From: Alphaproteobacteria bacterium MarineAlpha5_Bin7
GTDB lineage: Bacteria > Pseudomonadota > Alphaproteobacteria > HIMB59 > GCA-002718135
Reading direction: 5' to 3'
DNA: 55,534 nt
NCBI GenBank assembly: GCA_002938195.1
Contig: PTKX01000006.1
Span: forward strand, 1 to 55,534
The notes beneath the pieces are model-generated. The model saw only the letters and a program-made list of their open reading frames with translations, was not told the DNA's origin and did not search any database. Shown piece after piece: positions 35,951 to 53,331 of this stretch. Within the stretch, counting starts at the first letter, position 1. Each line of letters begins with the position of its first letter. A program made the translations under genes and the position numbers.

Positions 35951-35961
35951 AATTTAATATA

Positions 35962-36912
35962 ATGATCTCATTGGATAGAATTAAAGAAGCGCACAAAAAA
36001 ATTATACCTTATATCAATCATACTCCATTGATACATTCTGATTTTTTGTCTCAAAATAGAAATGTTAGATTAAAATTAGAATCACTTCAAAAAACTGGAT
36101 CTTTTAAATTACGGGGAGCATTAAATAAATTATTATCACTTTCAGATGAACAAAAAGATCGGGGGGTTATAGCTGTTTCTACAGGAAATCATGGTAAAGG
36201 TGTGGCCTATGCTTCCAGTTTATTGGGAATTAAATCCACTATATACATGTCATCTATGGTTCCAAAATATAGGAAAGAGGCAATTCAAGCTTTGGGAGCC
36301 AATGTTGAGATTGTAGGAAAAAATAGTGATGAAGCTGATTTATATGCAAAAAAAATATCTATAAAAGAAAATATTAAACTTATACATCCTTTTGATGATG
36401 AAGATATAATTGCAGGACAGGGAACAATAGGTTTAGAAATGATTAAAGATTTTCCTGATGTAGACACTGTAATTATACCTACATCTGGCGGAGGTTTGAT
36501 AGGAGGAATTGCTTTGGCTTTAAAATTACAAAAACCTAATATTAAAGTTATTGGAGTCTCTATGAAAAGAGGGCCTTCTATGTATGAAAGTTTAAAACTT
36601 GGAAAACCTGTTGATGTTGAAGAATTAGAAACTTTGGCTGATTGTTTAGGAGGAAGTATAGGGCAAGATAACAAGTATACCTTTAATATTGTCAAAAAAA
36701 CAATAGATGATTTTGTTTTAGTTGATGAAGATAAAATAGCAGAGGGTATCAAGTTAAATTTCTTGGAACATAAATTAGTAACTGAAGGCGCAGCCGCAAC
36801 CAGCATTATGGCAGTAAAAGAGAATTTATCCACACATATAGGAGAAAATGTTATTTGTTTGATTTGCGGAGGTAATATTGAATCTAAATTATTTACAAAA
36901 TTAGTTTCATGA
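35962..36912 (+). CDS. eutB: EutB-like threonine dehydratase family enzyme
   Basis: 316-residue fold-type-II PLP enzyme. The PLP lysine is Lys49 in KTGSFKLRGA; STGNHGKGVAYAS and the glycine-rich phosphate loop TSGGGLIGGIALAL are intact. The segment LADCLGGSIGQDNKYTF matches my recollection of EutB rather than biosynthetic threonine dehydratase, and no regulatory ACT domain is present. EutB is thought to dehydrate hydroxyectoine or its derivative. It overlaps eutC by 4 bases. Confidence 0.83.
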   Translation: MISLDRIKEAHKKIIPYINHTPLIHSDFLSQNRNVRLKLESLQKTGSFKLRGALNKLLSLSDEQKDRGVIAVSTGNHGKGVAYASSLLGIKSTIYMSSMVPKYRKEAIQALGANVEIVGKNSDEADLYAKKISIKENIKLIHPFDDEDIIAGQGTIGLEMIKDFPDVDTVIIPTSGGGLIGGIALALKLQKPNIKVIGVSMKRGPSMYESLKLGKPVDVEELETLADCLGGSIGQDNKYTFNIVKKTIDDFVLVDEDKIAEGIKLNFLEHKLVTEGAAATSIMAVKENLSTHIGENVICLICGGNIESKLFTKLVS

Positions 36913-37889
36913 CAGTTATTTTAAGTTTAGATGAAATCAAAAAATGTATAGGTTTGGATAAACAACTTATACCTATAATTGAAGAGGCATTTAAAAATTT
37001 AGCTCAGGATAAAGTATCTATGCCACCTATTTTACGCCTTGATATAGAAGAATATCATGGGGAGTCTGATGTAAAGGCTGCATATATTCAAGGTTTGGAC
37101 AGTTATGCTATAAAAGTAGCATCTGGTTTTTTTAACAATCCAAAAATTGGCCTTCCTTCTAGCAATGGATTAATGATTTTATTAGACTCAAAAACTGGCG
37201 TTATAAAATCAATTTTATTGGATAAGGGATACTTGACTGATATTCGTACAGCAATCGCTGGAGCCATAGCAGCAAAATATTTATCAAATCCTGATTCTAA
37301 AAAAGTAGGAATAATAGGGGCGGGAATACAGGCTAAATTACAACTTGAAGCATTATCTTTAGTTAGAAATATAGATACAGCATTTATATGGGCAAGAAAA
37401 AAAGATAAGGTTTCTGAATTTATAGCAGATATTAAGAAGCTAAATATAAATATTCAAGCATGTCTTTTACCAGAAGAAGTAGTAAATCAATGTGAAATTC
37501 TTGTTACAACAACGCCCAGCAAATCTCCTTTAATAAAAAATGAATGGTTAAAGAAAGGTCTGCACATAACAGCAATGGGTTCTGATGCTGAACAAAAGAA
37601 TGAATTAGATCCTCTTATCATTAAGGATTGTGATCTCTATATTCCTGATAGTTTGTCTCAAACAAAAATATTAGGTGAATTAAATCATGCAATAAAAAAT
37701 AATCTTGTTTCGTCTAATCAGAATTATAATGAACTTGGAGAAGTTATTCTTGATCCTAGCTTAGGAAGAAAAAGAAAAGAAGATATAACTGTATGTGACT
37801 TGACTGGTACTGGAGTTCAAGATACTGCTATAGCAAGACAAACATATGAAATAGCTATGCATTTAAAATTAGGAACAAGTGTTGATTAA
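36909..37889 (+). CDS. eutC: EutC-like ornithine cyclodeaminase family enzyme
   Basis: 326-residue member of the ornithine cyclodeaminase / mu-crystallin family. A Rossmann motif VGIIGAGIQAKLQLEAL follows the N-terminal substrate domain with KVASGFFNNPKIGLPS; later TAMGSDAEQKNELDP and SQTKILGELNHAI are typical of the EutC branch. EutC is proposed to reduce the intermediate formed by EutB. True ornithine cyclodeaminase (ornithine to proline) is an alternative that would also fit the amidinotransferase in the operon, which could release ornithine. Confidence 0.83.
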   Translation: MTVILSLDEIKKCIGLDKQLIPIIEEAFKNLAQDKVSMPPILRLDIEEYHGESDVKAAYIQGLDSYAIKVASGFFNNPKIGLPSSNGLMILLDSKTGVIKSILLDKGYLTDIRTAIAGAIAAKYLSNPDSKKVGIIGAGIQAKLQLEALSLVRNIDTAFIWARKKDKVSEFIADIKKLNINIQACLLPEEVVNQCEILVTTTPSKSPLIKNEWLKKGLHITAMGSDAEQKNELDPLIIKDCDLYIPDSLSQTKILGELNHAIKNNLVSSNQNYNELGEVILDPSLGRKRKEDITVCDLTGTGVQDTAIARQTYEIAMHLKLGTSVD

Positions 37890-37892
37890 GTT

Positions 37893-39335
37893 ATGAATGA
37901 ATCAATTATTAATAAAACATCTGAATATTTTAAAAAAAATGGTGTAGTTTTGCCTACTATCTCAGAACTTTGCGAACCTCATTCAATAAATGAAGAAATA
38001 AAAAATAAACTAAAATCCGTCAATAAGAATGAAATCAATCCTTTAAATTTATTTAGAGTACATTGGTATAATAATTTAAATCATTCAGGTTTTTCAAAAG
38101 TACCTGAACATATTGTGCTACCAAGTGAATTTACTGGAGTGGAAGCAAAGATAATTATTAATATTGGAAGATTATTTCCATTAATAACTGCACATAAAGT
38201 GCTTGCAGCTTATGGATGTTTATTACCAAGAATTTTAAATGGTACATTTGATTATGAAAATCATAAAGCTGTTTGGCCCTCAACTGGTAATTATTGTAGA
38301 GGAGGAGTCGCTATTTCAAGGATACTTGGATTTAAAAGTGTTGCAATTTTACCTGAAGGAATGAGTAGAGAACGTTTTAACTGGTTAGAAAAATGGGTTG
38401 AGGATAAAAATGATATAATTAAAACAGCTGGCACAGAAAGTAATGTTAAGGAAATATATGATGCTTGCAACCAATTACAAAAAGACTCAAAAAATGATAT
38501 TATAAATCAATTTGATGAATATTATAATTATGCTATTCATCGTGCAGTAACAGGACCTTCTTTTGAAAAATCTTTTTTAGAAGTAAAAGGTGACTCAAAT
38601 TTAAAACCAAGATTTTATGTTAGCGCCTCAGGATCAAGTGGAACACTTGCAGCTGGAGATTATTTAAAAGATAGACTAAATACTAAAATTGCTGTTGTTG
38701 AGGCAAAAGAATGTCCAACTTTGCTTTACAATGGCTATGGAGAACATAATATTCAAGGCATTGGTGACAAACACGTCCCATTAATTCATAATGTAATGAA
38801 TACTGATTTTGTTGTAGGCGTTTCTGATCAAGCCACAAATAATCTCAATATGATTTTTAACACAGATGAAGGTCAAAAATTTTTAATATCAAAAAAAGGT
38901 TTTGATATTAAATTTATTAACAGATTACCAGAATTTGGTTTCTCAGCTATTGCGAACATACTTGCTTCTATTAAATTAGCAAAATATATGAAATTAGGAC
39001 CTGATGATGCAATAATTACTGTAGCAACTGATGGTGCTGATTTATATTTTTCTGAATTAGAAAAAACAAAAAAAGAATTCCAAGGTATTTATGATGAAAT
39101 TGCATGCTCAGAAATATACGGTCAATATCTTAATGGCATTGCAATTGATGATACTTTAGAGCTTAATCAAAAAGACAAAGAAAGAATCTTCAATCTTGGA
39201 TACTATACTTGGGTAGAGCAACAAGGAGTAGATATTAATGATTTTGAAAAAAGAAGAAATATAAATTTTTGGAATGAACACTATAATTATATGCTTTCTC
39301 TTGATAATCAAATTAAAGAATTTAATAGTATTTAA
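37893..39335 (+). CDS. Fold-type-II PLP enzyme of unknown substrate (cysteine synthase-like)
   Basis: 480 residues, longer than cysteine synthase (about 310). The probable PLP lysine is Lys102 in ITAHKVLAA; WPSTGNYCRGGVAISRILG is the substrate/cofactor loop, and the phosphate-binding glycine loop is SASGSSGTLAAGDYL. An N-terminal extension of about 80 residues precedes the PLP domain, and a C-terminal part of about 70 residues has no feature I recognise. It sits between eutC and an M20 hydrolase with gaps of 3 and 5 bases, so it is surely part of the pathway; a beta-elimination or beta-replacement is likely, but no substrate can be named. Confidence 0.7.
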   Translation: MNESIINKTSEYFKKNGVVLPTISELCEPHSINEEIKNKLKSVNKNEINPLNLFRVHWYNNLNHSGFSKVPEHIVLPSEFTGVEAKIIINIGRLFPLITAHKVLAAYGCLLPRILNGTFDYENHKAVWPSTGNYCRGGVAISRILGFKSVAILPEGMSRERFNWLEKWVEDKNDIIKTAGTESNVKEIYDACNQLQKDSKNDIINQFDEYYNYAIHRAVTGPSFEKSFLEVKGDSNLKPRFYVSASGSSGTLAAGDYLKDRLNTKIAVVEAKECPTLLYNGYGEHNIQGIGDKHVPLIHNVMNTDFVVGVSDQATNNLNMIFNTDEGQKFLISKKGFDIKFINRLPEFGFSAIANILASIKLAKYMKLGPDDAIITVATDGADLYFSELEKTKKEFQGIYDEIACSEIYGQYLNGIAIDDTLELNQKDKERIFNLGYYTWVEQQGVDINDFEKRRNINFWNEHYNYMLSLDNQIKEFNSI

Positions 39336-39340
39336 CTTAA

Positions 39341-40495
39341 ATGAAGACAAAGAGTTTACATAATAAATTAGTAGAGTGGAGACATGATTTACACATGAAT
39401 CCACAAATAAGTTTTGAAGAAGAATATGCTTCGAATAAAGTAGCAAACTTATTAAAAGAATTTGGAATTGTGGTACATCCAGGTATAGCAAAAACTGGAG
39501 TAGTTGGAGTTTTAAAGAAAGGTAAAGGTAATAAGAGTATTGGCATTAGGGCAGATATAGACGCTTTACCAATTAATGAGAAAAATACATTTTCTTATAA
39601 ATCAAAAATTGAAAACAGAATGCATGCTTGTGGTCATGATGGACATACGACAATGTTACTTGGCGCTGCAAAATATTTAGCAGAGAATAGTAATTTTGAT
39701 GGAACTATTTATTTTATTTTTCAACCAGATGAAGAAAATTGTTTTGGCGCTAAAACAATGATTGAGGAAGGTTTATTCAGTAATTTTTCAATAGATGAAG
39801 TATATGCGATGCACAATATTCCAAATATGGAGTTAGGTTCATTTGGCACGCGTAAAGGAGCAATAACTGCTAGCGAAAATTTATTTGAAATCAATATTCA
39901 AGCAAAGGGTGGTCATGCGGCTTTACCACACATGGGGGTCGATGCAATAACTGTTGGCTCGCAAGTAGCTATAGCATTACAATCAATAGTTTCAAGAAAA
40001 CTCAATCCTGCAGATAATGGCATTGTTTCTATTACTGAATTTATTACTGATGGAAAAAAAAATGTATTACCTGGCAAAGTAAAAATAACAGGAGATGCCC
40101 GAGCTTTATCAAAAACAACTAACGAGATGATCGAAAAAAATATGAAACAGATTGTTAAAGGTGTATGTGAAGCTCATGAAGTTTCTTATGATGTAACATA
40201 TAAAACTTCTTGTCCAATAACTTTAAATGATTCAGAGCAGGCAGAATCAGCGACAAAGGCAGCAAAATCTTTACTAGGAGAGAAAAAAACTAATGGAAAT
40301 ATTGAACCAAGATTATTTTCTGAAGATTTTTCCATAATGTCTGCTGAAAAACCTGGATGTTTTGTTTTGATGGGCAATGGAACAAAAGGCTCTAATGCAA
40401 AACCATTGCATGCAGCAGATTATGACTTTAATGATGAATTATTGGTAATAGGTTCCTCTTATTGGGTGGAATTGGCAGAACAACAATTAAAATAA
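39341..40495 (+). CDS. M20 family amidohydrolase (N-acyl-amino-acid deacylase type)
   Basis: 384-residue zinc/manganese hydrolase of the hippurate hydrolase/IAA-amino-acid hydrolase branch. Metal-site residues are visible: Cys97 and His99 in HACGHDGHTTM, Glu131/Glu132 in FQPDEEN, His in YAMHNIP, and the C-terminal FSEDFS and LHAADYDFND. No signal peptide, so cytoplasmic. In ectoine catabolism the ring-opened N-acetyl-diaminobutyrate needs a deacetylase (EutE/DoeB, another fold); this enzyme occupies a comparable place and could do that job, which is inference. Confidence 0.85.
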   Translation: MKTKSLHNKLVEWRHDLHMNPQISFEEEYASNKVANLLKEFGIVVHPGIAKTGVVGVLKKGKGNKSIGIRADIDALPINEKNTFSYKSKIENRMHACGHDGHTTMLLGAAKYLAENSNFDGTIYFIFQPDEENCFGAKTMIEEGLFSNFSIDEVYAMHNIPNMELGSFGTRKGAITASENLFEINIQAKGGHAALPHMGVDAITVGSQVAIALQSIVSRKLNPADNGIVSITEFITDGKKNVLPGKVKITGDARALSKTTNEMIEKNMKQIVKGVCEAHEVSYDVTYKTSCPITLNDSEQAESATKAAKSLLGEKKTNGNIEPRLFSEDFSIMSAEKPGCFVLMGNGTKGSNAKPLHAADYDFNDELLVIGSSYWVELAEQQLK

Positions 40496-40516
40496 TATTA
40501 TTATAAGAGAAATTTA

Positions 40517-41665
40517 ATGTTTAAGAAAAATTTACTTAAATTACAAAATAGTATGAAAGAAAATAACATTGACCTCGCAATAATAACAGATGATGATTCT
40601 TTATATTATTTTACTGGATATTATAATTTTCTTCACATGGATTTTTTTCGTCCCACAATATTACTTGTTCCTAAAGATGATGAAAGCACTTTAATTACCC
40701 CTTTATTAGACGTTCTTTTAATAGAAAAGGATTGTCCGATTAAAAAAATTAAAACTTGGAATGATGGCATAGGCAATGAATGGAGAGAATATTTGCCTAA
40801 ATTTATAAAAGAAAACAAAAAAATAGCATGTGAAAAATTTAAGATTAACGCTACTGTTAGTAATTATTTAAACGATTTACTTAGTGGCAAAGATTTAAAA
40901 GATATAACGCCTATAATAAGCAATATTCGAATGATAAAATCTGAAGAGGAGTTAAAAATTGCAAGACATGCAGGTGAGGTAGCTTTGGCTATGATGGAGG
41001 GTGGCAAAAAGGCTTTAGGTCATAATGTACCTGAGTATGAAGTTGCTATCGCAACATCTCAAGCTGGAACTAGAAAAGCTGCAGAACTTTTGGAAAAACA
41101 TTATGATAATAAGACTATGTCTCCTAATATTCATTTTTTGCAAGTTATGTCTTCAGGCCATGATTTACCAAAAACTCATCATCGTGCTTCAACAAAATTA
41201 ATTAAAAAAGGAGACCCAGTATTTCTTTGCTTTTGCGGATCTACAAATTTTCATAGATTTAAATTGGGATTTGATCGTGTTTTTTGGATCGAAGAAGTTA
41301 GAGAAGACTCGCAAATAAAAGCATTCGAAGTCGCTGTAAAATCTCAAAAAGCAGCACTTAGTGTACTTCGACCAGGAATAACCGCAGAAGAAGTGCATGA
41401 AGCTTATGCAGAGACTATACAAGAAGAAGGTTATCCTTATCCAACTTTTCGCTGTGGCCGTGCTACAGGTTTTAGTGTTTTAGAAGAGCCACAATTGATT
41501 GTTGGAAATAAAACTATATTGCAGCCAGGAATGGTTTTTGCAGTAGATGGAGGAGCAAGTACCGATAATTTTAGAGCTCAAGTTGGAGATAGTTTTATTA
41601 TTACAGAAAATGGTTATGAACAAATTACTCATCATTCCAAAGAGATTAAAGATTTAATTGTTTGA
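40517..41665 (+). CDS. Creatinase-like M24 (pita-bread fold) protein without metal ligands
   Basis: 382 residues with the N-terminal creatinase domain and C-terminal M24 fold. The residues that bind the two metals in M24 peptidases are replaced: the first Asp by Cys (LCFCG), the His by Ala (GRATGFS) and the last Glu by Gly (QVGDSF). A histidine (His221) aligns with the catalytic His of creatinase, a metal-independent relative that splits creatine to urea and sarcosine. A cleavage of a C-N bond in a guanidino or cyclic amidine substrate is therefore plausible. EutD/DoeA (ectoine hydrolase) is a related family, but its N-terminal motifs are not evident here. Confidence 0.72.
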   Translation: MFKKNLLKLQNSMKENNIDLAIITDDDSLYYFTGYYNFLHMDFFRPTILLVPKDDESTLITPLLDVLLIEKDCPIKKIKTWNDGIGNEWREYLPKFIKENKKIACEKFKINATVSNYLNDLLSGKDLKDITPIISNIRMIKSEEELKIARHAGEVALAMMEGGKKALGHNVPEYEVAIATSQAGTRKAAELLEKHYDNKTMSPNIHFLQVMSSGHDLPKTHHRASTKLIKKGDPVFLCFCGSTNFHRFKLGFDRVFWIEEVREDSQIKAFEVAVKSQKAALSVLRPGITAEEVHEAYAETIQEEGYPYPTFRCGRATGFSVLEEPQLIVGNKTILQPGMVFAVDGGASTDNFRAQVGDSFIITENGYEQITHHSKEIKDLIV

Positions 41666-41668
41666 TTA

Positions 41669-42694
41669 ATGCAAAATATAAAAGTTTATAACGCACATTG
41701 TTGTGGTGAAATCGGTGATGTTGTCATAGGAATGGAAAATTTTGATTTTAAATCACCAAAAGAAGGGTCGGCACATTTATTCAAAGATAAATCTTGGAGA
41801 AATTTTTTTTTAAATGAACCTAGAGGCGGAGTATTTAAACATTGTAATATAATTGTAAAACCTTCAGATCCAGATGCTGATGCGGGATTTATTATTTTAG
41901 AGCCCGAAGATAACCCTCCTATGAGTGGTTCAAACACTATATGTGTCACAACCGTTTTGCTTGAAAAAAAAATATTAAAAATGCAATATCCTTTTACTTC
42001 ATTAACTCTTGAGGTTCCAGGGGGATTGATTAAAGTTATTGCAGAATGTGAAAATAACAAAGTAAAGAATGTTTCTTTGACTAATTTACCTTCTTTCGTT
42101 GATAAAGTTGATGTTACTCTTAAAACTTCAAATTATGGCAACATAATTGTTAGTACCGCTTATGGAGGCGATAGCTTTTTGCTATGCGAAGCAAGAGATT
42201 TTAATTTGGAAATAGAACCAAAAAATGCTAAAAATTTTGTAAATATTGCTGATGAACTATTAAATGAAGCTAATAAACAAATTGGATTTCAACACCCTAG
42301 TATTTCAGAATTAAATTATATTTCTTTTTGTCAATTTATGGATCCATTAAAAATTGACAATCAAGGAAATAAAAATGCAAAAAATACCGTTGTCATAAGA
42401 CCAGGCAAATTAGACAGGTCGCCTTGTGGCACAGGAACATCAGCAAGATTAGCATTGCTAAGAAATAAAAATGAAATTAAAATTGGAGAAAAAATAATAT
42501 CTCAATCAATTATTGGATCTACTTTTGAAGCATTTATTGAAGATGAAATTATTGAATCGTTAAGTGCTATGATCAAACCTAACATTAAAGGTAGTGCTTA
42601 TATAACCGGAGAACAAATTCTCTATAAAAATGACGATGATCCCTTTCCAGAAGGATACAAAATAAATGATACATGGCCAGATAGTCACAAATAA
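41669..42694 (+). CDS. Proline racemase superfamily protein with a Ser/Cys catalytic pair
   Basis: 341 residues. The superfamily includes proline racemase, 4-hydroxyproline 2-epimerase and trans-3-hydroxyproline dehydratase. The first catalytic position is Ser86 (PPMSGSNTI) instead of cysteine; the second is Cys253 (DRSPCGTGTSA). Loss of the first cysteine is seen in dehydratases and some epimerases of the family, so a simple proline racemase is unlikely. It lies 3 bases after the M24 gene and 47 before soxB. A cyclic imino acid as intermediate of the pathway is suggested. Confidence 0.82.
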   Translation: MQNIKVYNAHCCGEIGDVVIGMENFDFKSPKEGSAHLFKDKSWRNFFLNEPRGGVFKHCNIIVKPSDPDADAGFIILEPEDNPPMSGSNTICVTTVLLEKKILKMQYPFTSLTLEVPGGLIKVIAECENNKVKNVSLTNLPSFVDKVDVTLKTSNYGNIIVSTAYGGDSFLLCEARDFNLEIEPKNAKNFVNIADELLNEANKQIGFQHPSISELNYISFCQFMDPLKIDNQGNKNAKNTVVIRPGKLDRSPCGTGTSARLALLRNKNEIKIGEKIISQSIIGSTFEAFIEDEIIESLSAMIKPNIKGSAYITGEQILYKNDDDPFPEGYKINDTWPDSHK

Positions 42695-42741: not shown

Positions 42742-44007
42742 ATGACAAGATTTAATGCCTGGAATGTAATTAAAAATGGATTAAATGACCAAACTGGTTG
42801 GGATAGGCAATGGAGAGATCCAGAACCCAAAAAAGAGTATGAGATTGTCATTGTAGGCGGTGGCATACATGGTTTAGCAACTTCTTATTATCTAGCAAAA
42901 AACTTCAATATTAAAAATATTGCAGTTCTTGAAAAAGGTTGGATAGGAGGTGGCAATGCAGGAAGAAACACAACTATTATACGATCTAATTATATGATGC
43001 CAGGTAGTCATCAATTTTATGAGCATTCATTAAAGTTATGGGAAAACTTGAGTCATGATTTAAATTATAATGTAATGTTTAGCCAAAGAGCGCATGTATC
43101 ACTTTTTCATAGCCCTCCTGCTAGAGATGTTGCCGCAAGAAGATATAACATTATGAAACTTCATGGCACTGATGCAGAACTATGGGATATTAATAAGCTG
43201 AAAAAAAATATACCATATTTAAATTATCATAATGCAAGATTCCCAATACTAGGAGCAGCAGTTCAAAATAGAGCTGGAAATGCTAGACATGACGCAGTTG
43301 TTTGGGGATATGCAAGGGCAGCAGATCAATTAGGAGTAGATATTCTTCAAAACTGCGAAGTGACTAACATTTTAAGAACAAATAGCAATATAGATGGATT
43401 AGAAACAACAAGAGGAATTATAAAAGCTAAAAAAATTGGCTTTGCTGTTGCAGGTAACACATCAAGACTCTGGGAAATGACGGGTCTTGGAAATCTCCCA
43501 ATTGAGTCTCATAAACTACAAGCATTTGTTACTGAGTCAATTAAGCCATTAATAGATCAAGTTATCGTATATGGAGTTGGCGGCGCACATTTTTATATAT
43601 CACAATCTGATAAGGGTAGTTTAGTTTTTGGAGGTGATCTTGATTGGTACAAATCTTATGCACAAAGAGGTAATTTACCAATAGTTCAAGATTGTGCAGA
43701 GGCAGCAATGGCAATTCTTCCTTGTTTAGGAAGGATTAGAATAGTCAGGCATTGGGCTGGTGTATGTGACATGTCTATGGACGGAACTTTTTTTATTTGC
43801 AATACTCCTATAAAGAATTTGTTTTTAAATGCTGGCTGGAACTACGGTGGATTCAAGGCTGGTCCAGCTTCTGGATGGTATTTTGCAGATTTAATTGCTA
43901 ATGAACAACCTAATCAAATCATCAAAAATCATAATCTAGAACGTTTTGAAAAAGGTATTAACTTAGATGAGCGAGGAGCTGGACCTGATCCTAAATTACA
44001 TGGATAA
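42742..44007 (+). CDS. soxB: Sarcosine oxidase beta subunit
   Basis: 421-residue FAD-dependent subunit of the heterotetrameric enzyme oxidising sarcosine to glycine, with the methyl passed to tetrahydrofolate and H2O2 formed. The Rossmann motif VIVGGGIHGLAT is at 36-47, GNAGRNTTIIRSNYM follows, and the C-terminal GWNYGGFKAGPASGWYFA closes the FAD site. The N-terminal 30 residues with TGWDRQWRDPEPK are typical of SoxB. AGAAGG precedes the ATG. Gene order soxB-soxD-soxA-soxG is standard. Confidence 0.95.
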   Translation: MTRFNAWNVIKNGLNDQTGWDRQWRDPEPKKEYEIVIVGGGIHGLATSYYLAKNFNIKNIAVLEKGWIGGGNAGRNTTIIRSNYMMPGSHQFYEHSLKLWENLSHDLNYNVMFSQRAHVSLFHSPPARDVAARRYNIMKLHGTDAELWDINKLKKNIPYLNYHNARFPILGAAVQNRAGNARHDAVVWGYARAADQLGVDILQNCEVTNILRTNSNIDGLETTRGIIKAKKIGFAVAGNTSRLWEMTGLGNLPIESHKLQAFVTESIKPLIDQVIVYGVGGAHFYISQSDKGSLVFGGDLDWYKSYAQRGNLPIVQDCAEAAMAILPCLGRIRIVRHWAGVCDMSMDGTFFICNTPIKNLFLNAGWNYGGFKAGPASGWYFADLIANEQPNQIIKNHNLERFEKGINLDERGAGPDPKLHG

Positions 44008-44013
44008 TATAAT

Positions 44014-44304
44014 ATGATTAGAATTAAATGTCCTTATTGTGGAGAAAGAGATCATAGCGAATTTACCTATGGAAGTGACGCATCTATAGAATATCCAAAT
44101 CTAGAATCCAATGCAAAAGATTGGACTGAAGCTATTTTTTTTAGAAAAAATATTTATGGCAAACAAATAGAGACATGGCATCATACTAATGGTTGCAGAT
44201 TATGGTTAATCATTGAAAGATGTACAATAACTCATAAAATTTTTTCTATTAAACCTGCCCATCCAGAAATACACAAATTACTTAAAAATCAAAATAATAT
44301 ATGA
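44014..44304 (+). CDS. soxD: Sarcosine oxidase delta subunit
   Basis: 96-residue small subunit that binds zinc in the tetramer. The zinc ligands are visible as Cys6 and Cys9 (IKCPYCGERDHSEF) with a His and Cys in WHHTNGCRLW. Normal length for SoxD. It overlaps soxA by 4 bases. Confidence 0.94.
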   Translation: MIRIKCPYCGERDHSEFTYGSDASIEYPNLESNAKDWTEAIFFRKNIYGKQIETWHHTNGCRLWLIIERCTITHKIFSIKPAHPEIHKLLKNQNNI

Positions 44305-47279
44305 CTGCAAAAAGATTAAAAGATTACGGAAAAGTTAATCAAGATAAAATATTATCATTTACTTGGGAAAATAAAAAATATTTTGGTTACAAGGGCGATA
44401 GTTTGGCAGCATCTCTTTTAGCAAATAATATCAATATAATTGGAAGAAGTTTTAAATACCATCGTCCTAGAGGAATAATGTCTGCAGGAGTTGAAGAATC
44501 TGGAGCTCTGGTTACCATAGGTAAAAATGAATATACTGATCCAAATGTTAGGGCTACTTCTCAAGAGTTATATGAAGGTTTGATAGCATCGGGTCAAAAT
44601 GCATTTCCAAATGTTAATTTTGATCTTGGTTATATTAATAACTATCTAAGCCGTTTTTTTGCTGCGGGTTTTTACTATAAAACTTTTATGGGCTTACCAC
44701 CTTTTGAGTGGGGTAAAGGAACTAAGATTTGGATGATCTATGAAAAATTGATTAGAAAAGCAGCAGGGATGGGTAAAGCTTCTAAAATGCCAGATCCTGA
44801 CAAGTATGAGCACGCTAATGAATTTTGTGACGTACTTATTATTGGTTCAGGACCATCTGGAATAGCAGCAGCCGTTGAAGCGGCAAACAACAATCTAGAT
44901 GTTATACTTGTGGAACAAGATCATGTTATAGGAGGGAACTTACTTTCAAATTCAAACTTTGATTTTGAAGAAAAAAAATATTTTTTGCAAAAAGCTGGAA
45001 TTAAAGTGATGACGAGAACTACGGCTTTTGGTTTATATGATAATTGCGTAGCAGGTATGATCGAGAGAGTTAATGATCACTTTTTTTTACCAAAAAATAA
45101 TACTCCAAGACAGAGATTTTGGACAATTCGTTCAAAGCATATAATTTTAAGTACAGGTTCTTTGGAAAGACATATTGCTTTTAATAATAATGACATACCT
45201 GGAGTAATGACTGTTAATGCAGCTAGACATTATTTAAATAGATATGGAGTATTAGCAGGAGAAAAAATTATTATCTGTACCAATAATGATTCTGTATTTG
45301 AAACTTCGATATTATTATCTAAAGCTGGAGCTAAAGTAAAAGTATTTGATATTAGAGAAAAGATTGATGAAAACACAATAAAAAAACTTAATACCAACAA
45401 TGTTGAAATAGAGTTTAACAAAGCTCCATTAAACATTCAAGGAAACAAAAAAGTTGAAAGTATCGATATAGGAATAAAAGTGGGCAATAAATACAAAAAA
45501 GTTAACGAAGAAGAATGTGACTTGGTATTAATATCAGGAGGCTGGTCTCCGGTTATTCATCTTTTATCACATAGGGGTATAAAACCTAAATGGGATAAAG
45601 AAAATCTTTGCTTCTTACCTAGCCAATCTTCAGAACCTATAACAGTTGCAGGCTCCGCTGCAGGTATATGGAATAATGATGATTGTGAAGCTTCAGGTAT
45701 TGCCTCAGGATTAAAAGCGGCAAATGAAATTGGAATTAAAACCTCTGATTATTTTTTTCCTAAACAAGGAGGTTGGAAAAATCCTATATTTCCACTATTT
45801 GAAATAAAATCAAATCGATCAAGATCAAAAAGTTTTATAGATTTTCAGCATGACGTAACATCAGATGATATCAGGTTAGCCCATAGAGAAGGTTTTGTGT
45901 CAGTAGAGCACCTAAAAAGATATACAACTTTAGGAATGGCTAACGATCAAGGTAAAATGGGGAATATAATTGGATTATCAATAATGGCAGATTTATTACA
46001 GAAAGAAATTTCCGAAGTGGGTACCACGGTATTTAGACCACCTTATACACCTATATCAATTGGAGCGTTAGCAGGGAGAAATGTAAATAAACATTTCAGG
46101 CCATTAAGGGTTACACCATTGCATGATTGGAATTTAGAAAATGGTGCTAAAATGATAGAGACCGGGTTATATCAAAGACCTTGGTATTATCCAAAAAATA
46201 ATGAAAAATTGGCAGATGCGTATATTAGAGAGGCAAGCTCAGTAAGAAAAACAGTTGGATTATGCGATGTTACTTCTTTGGGGAAAATTTCAATACAAGG
46301 CCCTGATTCTACTATTTTTTTGAATAAGGTTTATAGCAATGCCTTTGCTAAGCTACCTATAAACAAAGCAAGATATGGTATTATGCTAAGAGATGATGGA
46401 TTGGTGATGGACGATGGAACTTCTTGGAGACTTTCTGAGAATGAATATTTTATGACTACATCTACAGCTCATGCTGCAAAGGTTATGTTATGGTTAGAGG
46501 AGTTATTACAAACTCGATGGCAAAACTTAAAAGTTCATGTAACTTCTGTTTCTGAAGAATGGGCGGCTGTATCAATTGCTGGACCAAAATCAAGAGATAC
46601 TCTTTCTTTGTGTGTTGAAGATCCTAATTTAATATCTAATGATAATTTGCCTTTTATGGGATTAACTCAAACTAAATTAAACAATGGTATACCTTGCAGA
46701 ATAGCTAGAATTAGTTTTTCAGGTGAGTTAGCTTTTGAAATTTATACCCCTTCTGATTTTGCATATAATATGATGAATATTCTTTGGGAAAGTGCAAAAA
46801 AATTTGATGGGTGTTTATATGGATTAGAAGCTTTGGGAGCACTAAGAATTGAAAAAGGTCATGTTACTGGAGCAGAATTAGACGGAAGAGTTACTATAGA
46901 GGATGTAGAATTGGGTAAAATGGCTTCTGATAAAAAATCATATATTGGCAGTGCAATGCAAAAAAGAGGAGTGTTAGCAGATAAAGATAGAGAAACTTTA
47001 GTGGGTATTTTTCCAAGAAATAAATCACAAACCTTTGATGCAGGAACTATTATTTGTAAAAAAAATGAAATTAAAGGATATGGAATAGGCAGAATTACTT
47101 CTGTAACTTATTCACCTGGATTAGGTCATTGGATTGGATTGGGATTCATAAAAGGCGGTTATACTGAGTGGAAAAACACAATTGTCGTTGGAGCAGATCC
47201 TGTTAGAAATAAGGAAATTGATTTAGAAATTGTTTCTCCTCACATGTTTGATCCCAAGGGGGAGAGATTACATGGTTGA
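44301..47279 (+). CDS. soxA: Sarcosine oxidase alpha subunit
   Basis: 992 residues, normal length. The N-terminal part has the ferredoxin-like segment FKYHRPRGIMSAG without iron-sulfur cysteines; a dinucleotide-binding domain starts near 177 (VLIIGSGPSGIAAA); the C-terminal third is a GcvT-like folate domain (from about 600), where the methylene group of sarcosine is transferred to tetrahydrofolate. The end overlaps soxG by 8 bases. Confidence 0.95.
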   Translation: MTAKRLKDYGKVNQDKILSFTWENKKYFGYKGDSLAASLLANNINIIGRSFKYHRPRGIMSAGVEESGALVTIGKNEYTDPNVRATSQELYEGLIASGQNAFPNVNFDLGYINNYLSRFFAAGFYYKTFMGLPPFEWGKGTKIWMIYEKLIRKAAGMGKASKMPDPDKYEHANEFCDVLIIGSGPSGIAAAVEAANNNLDVILVEQDHVIGGNLLSNSNFDFEEKKYFLQKAGIKVMTRTTAFGLYDNCVAGMIERVNDHFFLPKNNTPRQRFWTIRSKHIILSTGSLERHIAFNNNDIPGVMTVNAARHYLNRYGVLAGEKIIICTNNDSVFETSILLSKAGAKVKVFDIREKIDENTIKKLNTNNVEIEFNKAPLNIQGNKKVESIDIGIKVGNKYKKVNEEECDLVLISGGWSPVIHLLSHRGIKPKWDKENLCFLPSQSSEPITVAGSAAGIWNNDDCEASGIASGLKAANEIGIKTSDYFFPKQGGWKNPIFPLFEIKSNRSRSKSFIDFQHDVTSDDIRLAHREGFVSVEHLKRYTTLGMANDQGKMGNIIGLSIMADLLQKEISEVGTTVFRPPYTPISIGALAGRNVNKHFRPLRVTPLHDWNLENGAKMIETGLYQRPWYYPKNNEKLADAYIREASSVRKTVGLCDVTSLGKISIQGPDSTIFLNKVYSNAFAKLPINKARYGIMLRDDGLVMDDGTSWRLSENEYFMTTSTAHAAKVMLWLEELLQTRWQNLKVHVTSVSEEWAAVSIAGPKSRDTLSLCVEDPNLISNDNLPFMGLTQTKLNNGIPCRIARISFSGELAFEIYTPSDFAYNMMNILWESAKKFDGCLYGLEALGALRIEKGHVTGAELDGRVTIEDVELGKMASDKKSYIGSAMQKRGVLADKDRETLVGIFPRNKSQTFDAGTIICKKNEIKGYGIGRITSVTYSPGLGHWIGLGFIKGGYTEWKNTIVVGADPVRNKEIDLEIVSPHMFDPKGERLHG

Positions 47280-47832
47280 CAGAACTTCAGCTTTAGATAA
47301 AAATTATGAAATTGTTAAAAAAATCAATGATGAAAAAGTTAATCTTATATTTAACAGAAATATTAATTTACAGATTACACAAGTGGCAGCATGGCCCGAT
47401 ACAGTTTCAAAAGTTGAATTAATTATATCAAAATATTTAAAAATATTATCATTACCTAGATCAAATTTCGCTGAAGATAATGATTCTTTTGCTATAATGA
47501 GAGTAGAACCTCTTAAATGGTGGATTCTTGGTTCTGATATTCCTTTATTATCGACTGAAGAGGGAACTACATTAGATTTATCTCATTCATTCACGAATAT
47601 TCAAATATCTGGACCAAGTGCCAAATTATTTTTGAATAGGTTTTTACCTCTAGATTTAAGAGACAATTCATTTCCAATCAACAAAGTGGCCTCTTCAGCT
47701 ATACATCATGTTAGTGTAAAATTATGGCTTTCAAGAAATGGCTTTCAATTATTTATACCACGAGGCTATGCAATGTCATTGTGGGAAATTTTTCAAGAAT
47801 CAGCAACTCAATTTGGATATGAAATAAAGTAA
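47272..47832 (+). CDS. soxG: Sarcosine oxidase gamma subunit
   Basis: 186-residue fourth subunit, weakly conserved in the family; recognised by position after soxA and by motifs such as DLSHSFTNIQISGP and FPINKVASSAIHHVSVKLW. The frame extends upstream inside soxA to 47230, but ATG 47272 has a strong AAGGGGGAGAG ribosome-binding site 6 bases before it, so this start is preferred. The stop codon lies within the terminator stem. Confidence 0.9.
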   Translation: MVDRTSALDKNYEIVKKINDEKVNLIFNRNINLQITQVAAWPDTVSKVELIISKYLKILSLPRSNFAEDNDSFAIMRVEPLKWWILGSDIPLLSTEEGTTLDLSHSFTNIQISGPSAKLFLNRFLPLDLRDNSFPINKVASSAIHHVSVKLWLSRNGFQLFIPRGYAMSLWEIFQESATQFGYEIK

Positions 47833-47902: not shown

Positions 47903-49051
47903 TTGTCTAGAGAACTTATCAATTTTTTTATGAAATCAAATCCTGAAATAACTTTTGGAACCAGAATAAGAAAATCCCCTTTTTTTGATTCTACAATAAA
48001 ATGGGGATGCAAGGCTTTTACAATATACAATAAAATGTACATGCCAACATACTATAAATCATTTGTTGAGGATTATTGGTCATTAGTGAATGATGTTACA
48101 TTATGGGATGTAGCAGGAGAAAGACAAGTTGAGATAACTGGAAAAGATGCTGAAAAATTTGTTGAATATATTACGCCAAGAGATATTTCTGCATGTAAAG
48201 TTGGTCAATGCATGTATATTTTGTTAACCGAAAAAGATGGAGGTATTGTAAATGATCCAGTTCTATTAAAATTAGATGAAAATCATTTTTGGTTATCAAT
48301 TGCTGATAGCGATGTATTATTATGGTGCTTAGGTATTGCTTCTTCAAATAGATTTGATGTTAAATTATCTGAGCCTGACGCTTCTCCATTATCACTACAA
48401 GGTCCAAAATCACCTGATGTTATGGCAAGAGTGTCAGGTGAATGGGTAAAAGGATTAAAATTTTTTAATTTTAAAAAATCTGTAATTAATGGAATACCTG
48501 TGATTATTGCAAGAAGTGGATGGAGTGGGGAACCTGGTTTCGAAATTTATTTATTAGACGGTTCTAGAGGAAATGAATTATGGGAAATAATTATGGAAGC
48601 TGGGAAAGATTATAAGATTGCCCCAGCTTGCCCTTCACAAATTAATAGGGTTGAGAGTGGAATGCTTTCATATGGTTCTGATATGACTCTACAGGAAAAT
48701 CCTTATGATGTTAGTTTAGGAAAATTTGTTAATATAGATAAAAAAGCCGATTTTTTATCTAAAGCGGCTTTAAGTAATATTAAACAAAAAGGAATTCTTA
48801 AAGAAATGGTAGGTGTAGAAATCATGGAAAAAACATCAGATGAATTTATTCGAGATCACTTGCCTATTTATGATGAAAAAAATGTTGTTGGTAAAATTAC
48901 ATCCAGCGTTTATTCTCCAAGACTAAAAAAAAATATAGGATTGGCAATTATAAATAAGGAGAACATAAATTCTAATAATCTTAGACTAGAGTATAGCGGA
49001 AAAAGTATAGAAATAAAAATTTCTCAATTACCTTTTCTTAGGAATAAATAG
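47903..49051 (+). CDS. DmdA-like / GcvT-fold tetrahydrofolate-dependent demethylase
   Basis: 382-residue aminomethyltransferase-fold protein. The pattern VTLWDVAGERQVEITG, ITPRDIS, NDPVLLKL, FWLSIADSDVLLWCLGIA, GEPGFEIY and RVESGMLSYGSDMT resembles DMSP demethylase DmdA of SAR11 more than glycine-cleavage GcvT. Starts with TTG at 47903, in a 70-base gap containing the soxG terminator and a TATTAT (47875-47880) that might be a -10. Candidate substrates: dimethylsulfoniopropionate or an N-methylated amine. True DmdA versus DmdA-like paralogue needs phylogeny. Confidence 0.72.
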   Translation: MSRELINFFMKSNPEITFGTRIRKSPFFDSTIKWGCKAFTIYNKMYMPTYYKSFVEDYWSLVNDVTLWDVAGERQVEITGKDAEKFVEYITPRDISACKVGQCMYILLTEKDGGIVNDPVLLKLDENHFWLSIADSDVLLWCLGIASSNRFDVKLSEPDASPLSLQGPKSPDVMARVSGEWVKGLKFFNFKKSVINGIPVIIARSGWSGEPGFEIYLLDGSRGNELWEIIMEAGKDYKIAPACPSQINRVESGMLSYGSDMTLQENPYDVSLGKFVNIDKKADFLSKAALSNIKQKGILKEMVGVEIMEKTSDEFIRDHLPIYDEKNVVGKITSSVYSPRLKKNIGLAIINKENINSNNLRLEYSGKSIEIKISQLPFLRNK

Positions 49052-49918
49052 TTGCCATTTAAAGATTATTTTTTAGCTATTAGTGTGCCTTTATTATGGG
49101 GAATTGGCATGGTGATAACTAAGCCTGGAATGGAATATTTTCCTCCAATGCTTATTAATGGTTTGCGCTGGGGTTTAACGGGCATCATTCTTGTTTGGTG
49201 GTTTCCTATACCCAAAGATTATTTATTTAAAATATTTCTGGTGTCTATTATTGCGTGTACAATTCAGTATTCTTTAACCTTTTCTGGCTTAAATATAATA
49301 GATGCTTCATCAGCAGTACTTTTTGTGCAATGTGAAGTGCCATTTGGTGTATTAATTGCATATTTATTTTTAAAAGAAAAACCCCATCTTAAAAATATTA
49401 TTGGCATAGCAATTGCCTTTATAGGTTTGCTTATTCTATCAGGCTCACCAAATCTTGAAGGAAAATACATCGGAGTAATTCTAGTTTTATCAGGAGCATT
49501 TACTTGGGCTTTGGGACAAATTTTAATTAAACCAATAAGTGAAAAAATAAATGGAATTGTTCTTACAGCATGGATAGGAGTGTTTGCGGGACCGCAATTA
49601 ATTATTTCATCACACTTAATAGAGGGAAATGTTTTTAACAACATTGTGAATGCTGATTATAGAGCTTGGCTTATAGTAATATATTTAGGATTACTTATGA
49701 ATTCTTTAGGATATAGTATTTGGTATTATGTTTTAGGAAAGTATGCGGTTCAAAAAATATTACCAGTAATGCTACTTCTTCCTGTAACTGGAGTTTTGAC
49801 AGCTATTATCTTCCTCGGAGAAAGACCTGATATTAAAGTGTTTATAGGTGGCTTTATTATTATATTAGGTGTTGCTTTGATCTTATTTGAAAAAATCAAA
49901 CTTAATCAAAAAATTTAA
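49052..49918 (+). CDS. EamA/DMT family transporter
   Basis: 288-residue membrane protein with about ten hydrophobic segments in two EamA repeats (ISVPLLWGIGMVITKPGMEY at the start, and SGAFTWALGQILIKPIS opening the second half). Family members export or import amino acids and other small metabolites. It starts with TTG directly after the preceding stop, so it is co-transcribed with the DmdA-like gene. The stop abuts the stop of the minus-strand DUF3726 gene. Substrate unknown. Confidence 0.87.
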   Translation: MPFKDYFLAISVPLLWGIGMVITKPGMEYFPPMLINGLRWGLTGIILVWWFPIPKDYLFKIFLVSIIACTIQYSLTFSGLNIIDASSAVLFVQCEVPFGVLIAYLFLKEKPHLKNIIGIAIAFIGLLILSGSPNLEGKYIGVILVLSGAFTWALGQILIKPISEKINGIVLTAWIGVFAGPQLIISSHLIEGNVFNNIVNADYRAWLIVIYLGLLMNSLGYSIWYYVLGKYAVQKILPVMLLLPVTGVLTAIIFLGERPDIKVFIGGFIIILGVALILFEKIKLNQKI

Positions 49919-50620
49919 TTAATCATTATCATTCTTTGCACCTGCTCCTTTTAATCTAGATTCTAATGATTCTGGCACATAAGAGCGTTGAGCGATTTTT
50001 TCTAAAGTTTTCCAATATCTTGAATTAGGTTTAAGTGATTTAGATAAATTATTTTGAATGGTATGATTTGTTATTTCTTGTTTAAATTTTTCTAATTTTA
50101 AAGAATCAGATTTTTTTGAAATAATAATTTTTACTTGATTTTTTTTAAGTTTCTCAAAGTTAGAATTTGATCCAATTTTTACTGAATTTTTTTTAATTGA
50201 GTAAAAAAAATTTTCTTTTTTATTTTTAACATATATTAAATGTGAAAATAAAACCTTATTTGTAATTTTAAATAGAAGAGGAAGAAAATAAATAGGCTCT
50301 TCACAATTATTTATAACAATTTCTATTCTTTTTTCTTTATCAATTATAGAGCTAAAGTAATCTATTAATCCAGGCCCTTTCATTAAAACCGATTTTTTTT
50401 TTAAATCAATAACTAATTTTTTTTTTGATAATTTAATTTTTCCATCATATTTTTTATCAATTTTATTTATTGTATTTATAAGTAGTTTTACGCCATACAA
50501 ATTGTTTAATTCAAGCCATGCGATGATAAACGCTGCATCTTCATCTGCTCCATAGGGAAAGCCCATTCCAGAGAAAGCTCTTAAGGCATTTATGTAGACT
50601 TCATAATATGAGAAATTCAC
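49919..50620 (-). CDS. DUF3726 family protein
   Basis: 233 residues, function unknown. The N-terminal LRAFSGMGFPYGADEDAAFIIAWLE and the C-terminal RSYVPESLESRLKGAGAKNDND match my memory of DUF3726, which typically ends in a similar GAGA-D-ND tail. The middle part is very lysine/asparagine-rich and diverged. No signal peptide or membrane segment. It lies 6 bases downstream of the 553-residue minus-strand gene, so the two form one transcript and probably act together. Confidence 0.7.
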   Translation of the reverse strand: MNFSYYEVYINALRAFSGMGFPYGADEDAAFIIAWLELNNLYGVKLLINTINKIDKKYDGKIKLSKKKLVIDLKKKSVLMKGPGLIDYFSSIIDKEKRIEIVINNCEEPIYFLPLLFKITNKVLFSHLIYVKNKKENFFYSIKKNSVKIGSNSNFEKLKKNQVKIIISKKSDSLKLEKFKQEITNHTIQNNLSKSLKPNSRYWKTLEKIAQRSYVPESLESRLKGAGAKNDND

Positions 50621-50626
50621 TGTTAA

Positions 50627-52288
50627 TTAATATGAATCCATGTTAGCAAAACCCCATTCATCAACGTTTTTGTCAGAAAGTTTATTAAAGAAAGGTGCCC
50701 CTGGGAAGAAACTAACTCTGAGCCATCTATCAGATCTGGGATCATATCTGGAGGCTCCAAAAAATGATAATTTAAAACGCAACATATTTATAGGCAATGT
50801 TTGTTTTGCTAAGATATTATCATTAACCTCTCCATATTGAAATTTGGATAAAGTTTGGATTCTTCTAATAATTCCCCTGTATTCTGGAAATTTTAACAAA
50901 AATTCAGCAATATTTAATTTATGTGTTTTTGGATTATTGGCAATAAAATTATATAATTCATTTACCATCTTTCCTATACCAAGAGGTTGTTCTAATTCTG
51001 CGCCTTTTTCATTAAAGCGCTCACCTAATCTTGGCTCTAATTTTGCTTCAGAAATATACCAAAATAAAAATAAGTTTTTTTTATTTTTAAAATTTATATT
51101 AATAGCCCATTTGTATTTATTTCTAATTTCATATAAAAGTGATTTAATAGTCTGATTGGTTTCTATATTCATATCCTCATTTTCAGACATATTTTCTGCA
51201 AGTGGATCTGCAATCTTAGGAAATAACTCAATTATTTGAACTTTAGTAATTTCTTGAGCATCATAACTAAATTTTTTTTCGGTATAGACAATTATATTTT
51301 TCCATGAAATATTATTTTTTTTATTTAAAGAAATCTTTTTACAATACTTAATTATATTTTTTAAATCATTTGATGATTTGCGATTCTTATTCTTTTGAAA
51401 ATTGTCATAGGTCAGTACTTCATCTAAATATAGCTTAGCTTTCTCTAAAAGTTTTATAAATTTAACAAAATGTTTTTTATTTATCTTTTTTATAAATTTT
51501 ATATCATTAAGAGCTTGTTCATATTGTTTCATCCACTGATGTATCAAAGTCGGATGTTTAATTATAAATGGAGCCATACCTAGACCAGTAGAATTTCCTA
51601 TACCTAGATGCTGTTTAATATTATCATTTAACTTAACTGCTTTTAACGGATTTTTTTTATGAGCTATGTGCTCTACAAGATCTACGCTAAACTCTCTGAT
51701 TATATATACAGCTAACATTTCTGCTCTAAATGGTTGTTTAAAATCAGTTTTCGTTTTTGTTCTAAAAAAATCTGACATTCCAAATTTACCATTGCCATAA
51801 ACAGCTGTTGTTCTTAGAAGATATCCTACGTCATTAACATCTTTTATGCTAGGTTGCTCTCCAATAGAAAGGCAAGTTACAACTTTGTCAAATAAGCGCA
51901 AACTTTTATTAGCTCTACTTAATACTAATTCATTGGCTGAATTTCTTCCTGCTTCTTGTAAAGGTATGTTTTGCCTAAGACGTTTTAGATTTTTTGTTGA
52001 TATTTTGCCTATATGCAGAGTATAGGCTGTATCCCATTTATCAGCAATTACTCTGTCACTTCTATCTTTTGCAGCTAAATATTGTGAAAAACAAACTAAT
52101 GAATATATCTGATTTTTTGTATTTATTTCATAAATAGCAGTTCCATAACCGTTTTTATCTAACGCAAACTTAGACTTAGATATTTTCCATTTTTCTTTAA
52201 CTATTGTTCTTAGCATGCTTCTTGAGAAACTTAATCTAGAAGGATATCTAGAACCCATCCGATCCAAGGTCATATTATTTTTTTTCAT
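50627..52288 (-). CDS. Conserved protein of unknown function, 553 residues
   Basis: I do not recognise a family. The protein is soluble and basic, with no signal peptide or membrane segment. Notable stretches are RYPSRLSFSRSMLRTIVKEKW near the start, DRSDRVIADKWDTAYTLHIG, a VGYLLRTTAVYGNGKFGMSDF block, and a glycine run GIGNSTGLGMAPF. The end has YDPRSDRWLRVSFFPGAPF. Such islands, separated by Lys/Asn-rich stretches, look like an enzyme core under constraint. It is divergent from the M19 dipeptidase gene across 56 AT-rich bases and co-directional with the DUF3726 gene. Minor ATG alternative at 52273. Confidence 0.75.
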   Translation of the reverse strand: MKKNNMTLDRMGSRYPSRLSFSRSMLRTIVKEKWKISKSKFALDKNGYGTAIYEINTKNQIYSLVCFSQYLAAKDRSDRVIADKWDTAYTLHIGKISTKNLKRLRQNIPLQEAGRNSANELVLSRANKSLRLFDKVVTCLSIGEQPSIKDVNDVGYLLRTTAVYGNGKFGMSDFFRTKTKTDFKQPFRAEMLAVYIIREFSVDLVEHIAHKKNPLKAVKLNDNIKQHLGIGNSTGLGMAPFIIKHPTLIHQWMKQYEQALNDIKFIKKINKKHFVKFIKLLEKAKLYLDEVLTYDNFQKNKNRKSSNDLKNIIKYCKKISLNKKNNISWKNIIVYTEKKFSYDAQEITKVQIIELFPKIADPLAENMSENEDMNIETNQTIKSLLYEIRNKYKWAININFKNKKNLFLFWYISEAKLEPRLGERFNEKGAELEQPLGIGKMVNELYNFIANNPKTHKLNIAEFLLKFPEYRGIIRRIQTLSKFQYGEVNDNILAKQTLPINMLRFKLSFFGASRYDPRSDRWLRVSFFPGAPFFNKLSDKNVDEWGFANMDSY

Positions 52289-52344: not shown

Positions 52345-53331
52345 ATGGAAAAAAATTATCAAAATCAAATAATCATTGATGGACTCCAGTATTGTAACTG
52401 GAATAGAGAAATATTTGAAGATTTATGGAATGGAGGTATTACTGCAGTCCATGCAACACTGGTTTATTGGGAAAATACTGAAGAATCATTCAATAGAATT
52501 AATGAGTGGAATAAAATATTTGATGAAAATAATGATATTATATGTCACGCAAAATCCACCAATGATATATTGCAGGCTAAAAAAAATAAAAAAGTAGCAA
52601 TAATATTTGGTTTTCAAAATTCAGCCCCTATTGCTAATGATATATATTTGTTACAAAATTTTTTTAATCAAGGGTTAAGATTTATGCAACTTACCTACAA
52701 TAACCAAACTCCTCTTGGAGGAGGCTGTTTCGAAAATAATGACTCAGGTGTTAGCCGTTTTGGCAAAGAAGTTATCGAAGAAATGAACAGATTAGGAATC
52801 ATTGTTGATCTAAGCCATGCTGGTAAAAATACCTGTCTTGATGCCATTAAATATTCTTCTAAACCAGTAGCAATATCACATGCTAATCCAAAATTTTTTC
52901 ACAATTCACTTAGAAATATAGAGGATGAAGTTTTAATTGAACTTGCAAAAAAAAATGGATTTATCGGCTTAAGTTTATACCCCTATCATCTTAAAAACTT
53001 TGGCGAATGTACTTTAGAGGACTTTTGTGCAATGATAAAAAAATTAATTAATTTAATTGGAATTGAGCATATAGGAATAGGATCGGATTTATGTAAAAAT
53101 TGGCCCAATGAAGTTGTGATGTGGATGAGAAATGGAAAATGGACAAAAAAAATTGATTATGGAGAATCTACTAATAAAAATATTAATTGGCCAAAACAAC
53201 CTATTTGGTTCACAAAAGGAAGCGATTTAAAAAATATTTTTGAATCTTTAGTTATAAATGGATTAAGCGAAGATCAAGCTTATAAAATCATGGGAATAAA
53301 TTGGCTTAATTTTATGAAAAATCATTTCTAG
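52345..53331 (+). CDS. M19 (renal dipeptidase) family protein, atypical metal site
   Basis: 328 residues with the TIM-barrel M19 fold. It keeps DLSHAGKNT, AISHANPKFFHNSLRN and GIGSDL, but the N-terminal HxD zinc motif is replaced (IDGLQYCNWNREIF) and the usual metal-bridging Glu is Gln (GFQNSAP). The same changes occur, as I recall, in the dipeptidase homologues beside dimethylglycine/glycine-betaine genes of Pseudomonas (PA5396 type), so this branch fits the methylated-amine context. The 3' end overlaps the convergent EamA gene by 20 bases. Confidence 0.82.
   Translation: MEKNYQNQIIIDGLQYCNWNREIFEDLWNGGITAVHATLVYWENTEESFNRINEWNKIFDENNDIICHAKSTNDILQAKKNKKVAIIFGFQNSAPIANDIYLLQNFFNQGLRFMQLTYNNQTPLGGGCFENNDSGVSRFGKEVIEEMNRLGIIVDLSHAGKNTCLDAIKYSSKPVAISHANPKFFHNSLRNIEDEVLIELAKKNGFIGLSLYPYHLKNFGECTLEDFCAMIKKLINLIGIEHIGIGSDLCKNWPNEVVMWMRNGKWTKKIDYGESTNKNINWPKQPIWFTKGSDLKNIFESLVINGLSEDQAYKIMGINWLNFMKNHF

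Follow-up and report, generated by a model that had tools for sequence, protein, structure and literature searches.

What keeps two adjacent minus-strand genes in a small, streamlined genome when the larger of them encodes a protein of no recognisable family? The question arises from the 55,534-nucleotide stretch of DNA analysed here (the window), part of a genome of 1.23 Mb in 42 contigs (93% complete), a size that bears out its description as streamlined in the first-pass annotation. The ORF layout agrees exactly with that annotation in placing the two genes, denoted X and Y, 6 bp apart (Table 1). Neither is a chance ORF, because relatives of X occur in other classes and phyla and median dN/dS among close relatives is low (about 0.10 for X and 0.18 for Y; the M19-family gene beside X gives about 0.11), so that purifying selection acts on both X and Y in related genomes.

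Table 1. Features of the window discussed in the text, in order of position.
Feature	Position	Strand or orientation	Basis and remarks
SoxB-like subunit, MgdA clade	42742-44007	+	profile match and SoxB-like tree
SoxD-like (MgdB-type) delta subunit	44014-44304	+	place in quartet
SoxA-like (MgdC-type) alpha subunit	44301-47279	+	profile match
SoxG-like (MgdD-type) gamma subunit	47272-47832	+	likely ATG start; TTG at 47230 in the ORF list
GcvT-family protein near DMSP demethylase	47903-49051	+	393 bits against a cut-off of 410
EamA transporter gene	49052-49918	convergent with Y, abutting Y	ORF layout
Y (233 aa, GTG start)	49919-50620	-	ORF; DUF3726 (PF12525)
X (553 aa, ATG start)	50627-52288	-	ORF; unnamed family, GxGNxTGLGMAP loop
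M19-family protein	52345-53331	+	PF01244 profile; divergent from X

X matched nothing in Pfam or NCBIfam, neither alone nor across 14 relatives, and sequence and profile searches found no true match among PDB sequences; coiled-coil and chance PDB matches were rejected as an identity. The predicted structure of X is confident throughout (pLDDT 90.7, pTM 0.91), and a Foldseek search with this model against the PDB (350,542 chains) and BFVD gave 0 matches at E ≤ 0.001, the best PDB match having an E value of 0.49 and a TM score of about 0.1. START/Bet v1-type domains appeared at E values of about 1-4 with probabilities of at most 0.15 and were judged to be chance. As modelled, X has no known fold among solved (PDB) and viral (BFVD) structures. 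The first-pass view that it belongs to no recognised family therefore stands, and a characterised enzyme family to which it could be assigned, sought by sequence, profile and fold, was not found.

That view had also made X an orphan, which it is not. A query of genome_contigs with the single X sequence returned no match, so that an alignment query was needed; this found relatives encoded on at least 571 stretches. Among the matches listed, full-length relatives at 61-66% come from uncultured marine Alphaproteobacteria and those at about 40% from other classes and phyla, and the X-bearing taxa include SAR11-type Pelagibacteraceae, SAR116, rhodobacters, Vibrio, Aliivibrio, Shewanella, Halomonas, Pseudomonas, Psychrobacter, Mesorhizobium, Paraburkholderia and Acidimicrobiales. 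X also occurs on 168 plasmid records and in 21 of 142 sampled genomes of the class, and all unfused copies annotated in the operons that we read are called 'hypothetical protein'. An alignment of 59 diverse sequences contains 72 invariant columns, among them 11 Arg residues, the GxGNxTGLGMAP loop and one His, and no Cys. The X of one genome (G084, L041:7518-9629) carries a low-complexity insertion of ~150 residues, with NVS/DNGG-type repeats, between conserved parts.

In the loci surveyed, Y is almost always the neighbour of X. A profile search placed Y directly downstream of X in 96 of 98 X loci; of the two exceptions, one has X and Y fused and the second sits at a contig end. The median gap between the genes is 2 bp, and in 31 loci they overlap by 4 bp. 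Fusions are seen in two genomes: that of Mesorhizobium sp. 131-2-1 spans 814 residues with a clear Y domain (E = 1e-36), and that of G057 has a weaker Y domain (E = 7e-6). Co-occurrence across Alphaproteobacteria, proposed earlier as a check on the pair, was borne out in the class sample: PF12525 occurs in 15 of 142 genomes, all 15 of which contain X (Fisher p = 8e-16). X and Y thus stay together in hundreds of bacteria from sea and soil.

The DUF3726 assignment of Y was confirmed at 31.9 bits (gathering cut-off 22.1) and repeated in the genome search, and the family can be traced further. In a Foldseek search with the Y model (pLDDT 87.8), the 27 best matches were all Ldh_2 (type II malate/lactate dehydrogenase) proteins, with a probability of 1.00 to Ldh_2 structures; a relative of Y (L103) exceeds the threshold of the Pfam Ldh_2 family (PF02615) with 49.1 bits against 38.8, and a profile-profile comparison of Y with Ldh_2 gives E = 1.9e-5. 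The same comparison made with X returned nothing. Y thus shares its fold with a family that includes the DpkA-type delta1-piperideine-2-carboxylate reductase (1wtj), but Ldh_2 enzymes have 335 residues and carry a catalytic Ser-His (SHG) motif, whereas Y has about 230 residues, ~100 fewer, and the motif is aligned to a gap. The Ldh_2 alignment also stops before the GTNP and Asp motifs of the NAD(P) site. Because neither catalytic nor NAD(P) motifs were recovered, we do not class Y among the working Ldh_2 enzymes. It is probably a diverged, short Ldh_2-fold protein that has lost catalysis, and the gapped motif and missing residues make it best read as a former reductase that now serves as a partner subunit. 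The flexible C-terminal tail of Y (GAGA..NDND), kept in most lineages, is modelled with low confidence; any docking of this tail onto X is speculative. DpkA itself is an Ldh_2 enzyme that makes N-methyl amino acids.

X and Y had been regarded as a two-gene unit, which proved too narrow. An M19-family gene (PF01244, E = 8e-74 for that of the window) lies beside X in 89 of 98 loci, co-directional with X in most lineages and divergent in that of the window. It belongs to the X-Y unit, which comprises at least three genes. In the human M19 dipeptidase, the dinuclear metal site is formed by H20, D22, E125, H198 and H219. The positions of H20 and D22, placed by motif, are occupied here by L14 and Y16, which are at least 95% conserved in 89 M19 sequences, and that of E125, aligned with the human enzyme, by Q91; only H158 and H179, corresponding to H198 and H219, are kept. 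With three of five metal ligands replaced, the 'dipeptidase' annotation is doubtful, and judged by its residues the protein is probably not a dipeptidase. Its nearest solved structure, 2i5g, is titled only amidohydrolase and is missing the same ligands. We take 2i5g to be the pepD M19 protein of a glycine betaine/dimethylglycine cluster. In Vibrio natriegens and P. aeruginosa, an M19 gene, pepD, lies within such a cluster (PMC12093977). Both that cluster and the present unit place an M19 protein among methylated-solute genes, although the partners are dgcAB and gbcAB in the one and X and DUF3726 in the other. The M19 protein, its relatives and 2i5g probably form a subfamily that is misannotated and associated with methylated-solute clusters. 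Membership of the M19 gene, the wide spread of X and the Ldh_2-fold origin of DUF3726 are all absent from the first-pass annotation.

Elsewhere, the three genes are components of a larger operon with the order LysR-aldehyde dehydrogenase-M19-(BCCT/ProU transporter)-X-DUF3726-Ldh, to which RidA is often added. Annotated versions, complete or largely so, occur in Ruegeria sp. TM1040 (TM1040_RS02315 to RS02345), Phaeobacter inhibens, Sulfitobacter, Aminobacter and Pseudomonas; in Ruegeria TM1040, Phaeobacter and Aminobacter the order reads LysR-aldehyde dehydrogenase-M19-(BCCT)-X-DUF3726-Ldh. The transporters are of betaine type, either BCCT or ProU/OpuAC, and the aldehyde dehydrogenase is nearest to alpha-ketoglutaric semialdehyde dehydrogenases, so that a C5 semialdehyde would fit as its substrate. 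Of these genes the window retains only M19, X and Y as a module, and M19 is divergent there. Searches of the source genome (93% complete) found no Ldh_2 gene and no aldehyde dehydrogenase of the operon clade, those present falling outside it; the aldehyde dehydrogenase at 32557-34008 of the window was considered and rejected as being of SSADH type. Other enzymes would therefore carry out those steps. In this genome the pathway may differ, other enzymes may complete it, or the genes may reside in the missing 7%.

A link with N-methyl amino acids is suggested by the neighbourhood of the operon, which in TM1040 and Phaeobacter M647 sits next to a four-gene quartet annotated as 'sarcosine oxidase'. 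In a tree of SoxB-like proteins, this quartet nests with gmaS-linked MgdA (support 100/99), for which Paracoccus aminophilus and Rhizobium phaseoli supplied the references. The SoxB-like protein of the window falls in the same MgdA clade, apart from sarcosine oxidase, on a separate sub-branch together with Roseovarius pelagicus, whose copy lies beside a Rieske gene. We rejected a sarcosine-oxidase identity for the window quartet because it falls within this gmaS-linked clade and because the genome has a second SoxB-like gene that is itself of sarcosine-oxidase type (G000:C38:2606-3835). The genes at 42742-47832 would thus encode an N-methylglutamate-dehydrogenase-type quartet (MgdABCD), as classified by sequence. 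Genes of this type adjoin the unit in TM1040, Phaeobacter M647, a further genome (G065, where X and an MgdA-type gene lie about 6 kb apart) and the window, which, together with the betaine-type transporters, substantiates the tie to methylated-solute genes suggested at first pass. MgdA-clade genes, with membership read from identity and alignment end, occur in 15 of the 21 genomes with X and in 9 of the other 121 (p = 7e-10). Because genomes with X are likewise enriched in genes of sarcosine-oxidase type, we give adjacency and phylogeny more weight than co-occurrence. Although the window quartet and the roseobacter quartets share a clade whose members elsewhere are linked to gmaS, a search of the source genome for gmaS found none. 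The N-methyl amino acid of this genome would therefore not derive from methylamine via that route, and the separate sub-branch means that the substrate of the window quartet may differ.

Which solute would supply such an amino acid? Homarine is N-methylpicolinate, an N-methylated osmolyte of marine algae. It is an abundant solute of marine phytoplankton that, once degraded, contributes to the cycling of carbon and nitrogen in the ocean. Ferrer-Gonzalez and co-workers have reportedly described, in 2026, an operon homABCDER of five structural genes and a regulator in SAR11, SAR116 and Rhodobacterales, the product of which is said to be N-methylglutamate, passed to Mgd. Literature searches on DUF3726 and homABCDER found no paper on either. 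As reported, homABCDER would fit the LysR-aldehyde dehydrogenase-M19-X-DUF3726-Ldh operon in gene number, taxa and Mgd neighbour; the window genome differs in that its full enzyme set, with operon-type aldehyde dehydrogenase and Ldh_2, was not found. PMC13390433 notes a recent report of a role for Mgd in the breakdown of homarine, for which its source is Ferrer-Gonzalez et al. 2026 (Nat Microbiol, 10.1038/s41564-026-02313-7). Mgd-type neighbours and this report together argue for catabolism of an N-methyl solute, most likely homarine. That the gene set serves the catabolism of a betaine-type N-methyl solute is highly probable; for homarine specifically, the balance is favourable with considerable room for doubt. 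Similarly, we somewhat favour a reading in which X and Y form the two subunits of one enzyme that, with the M19 protein, operates in the operon for an N-methylated betaine-type solute, homarine being the likeliest.

The main competitor, for which we see an appreciable minority chance, holds that, in the lineage of the window at least, the same module acts on another N-methylated betaine, such as proline betaine, a different pyridine betaine or an N-methyl amino acid. The operon transporters are of betaine type and not specific to homarine, and some loci have near X a Rieske oxygenase gene or dimethylglycine-dehydrogenase-like and BHMT-like genes, the latter two named by inspection of their sequences. 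The distinct branch that the window quartet shares with R. pelagicus points the same way, as does the failure to find the operon aldehyde dehydrogenase and Ldh_2 in the source genome. So do the two X copies of Phaeobacter inhibens DSM 17395 (plasmid NC_018291, L135), owing to which the X family may serve more than one substrate. Against this, the full roseobacter operon beside Mgd-type genes and the Mgd-homarine report favour homarine for the family as a whole. On NC_018291, the X copy that we read has no adjoining BCCT or Ldh gene and has DMSP-catabolism genes nearby, which hints at a second substrate.

X and Y might instead be non-catalytic, acting as a chaperone, regulator or scaffold for M19 and the operon dehydrogenases, as would suit a dehydrogenase-fold Y without catalytic residues, an M19 protein that has lost metal ligands and an X in which no conserved metal or nucleotide motif was recognised. 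We consider this improbable: the invariant columns of X, rich in Arg, Trp, Asp, Glu and glycine loops, resemble an active site, X is retained in a streamlined genome where the operon aldehyde dehydrogenase and Ldh_2 were not found, and ordinary relatives of the other operon enzymes work without a partner of this kind. Less probable still, to the point of being hard to credit, is a role in peptide metabolism, with M19 as a true dipeptidase and X-Y aiding dipeptide use. The Pfam and PGAP names support it, but the replaced metal ligands across the 89 M19 sequences, their like loss in 2i5g and the betaine-type transport of the operon speak against it.

If X and Y are indeed subunits of one enzyme of homarine catabolism, the operon could be arranged as follows. 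X, held or gated by Y as a former Ldh_2 reductase, would make the first attack, dearomatising or opening the pyridinium ring; the operon aldehyde dehydrogenase would oxidise the semialdehyde formed; the M19 protein would take off the remaining one-carbon (formyl-type) or C-N piece; and RidA would clear enamine intermediates. The Ldh_2 enzyme would then reduce an imine to N-methylglutamate, which the adjoining Mgd-type tetramer would convert to glutamate and methylene-THF. One ring carbon is lost between homarine and N-methylglutamate, which suits a sequence of ring opening, aldehyde oxidation, formyl-type removal and imine reduction. We assign the ring-attacking step to X-Y by elimination, and infer the substrate and the order of steps. 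The boldest form of the proposal is tentative and, in our estimation, rather unlikely to hold in full: that X founds an enzyme family of unseen fold which has neither a conserved metal site nor a classical flavin/NAD motif and which, paired with a pseudo-dehydrogenase, attacks the homarine pyridinium ring. If true, it would constitute a new route for breaking an aromatic N-heterocycle, one that SAR11, SAR116 and a wide range of other bacteria would use. Even if the operon has by now been published, an X with neither a named family nor a PDB fold match remains, and a central enzyme of the pathway is therefore chemically unexplained. DUF3726 is now recognisable as a decayed Ldh_2 dehydrogenase, X, Y and M19 become candidates for an unusual reaction, and annotators gain a family spanning at least the 571 stretches counted above.

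Upstream of the Mgd-type quartet, positions 35201-42694 form a compatible-solute island with EutA-, EutB- and EutC-like ectoine genes, a DoeB2-like amidohydrolase gene and a trans-3-hydroxyproline dehydratase-like gene. The GcvT-family protein encoded downstream of the quartet could be DmdA, or else a different folate-dependent demethylase acting in the N-methyl pathway. GcvT-family genes also lie 3' of the X operon at two other loci (G030 and L097), where they possibly belong to the same pathway.
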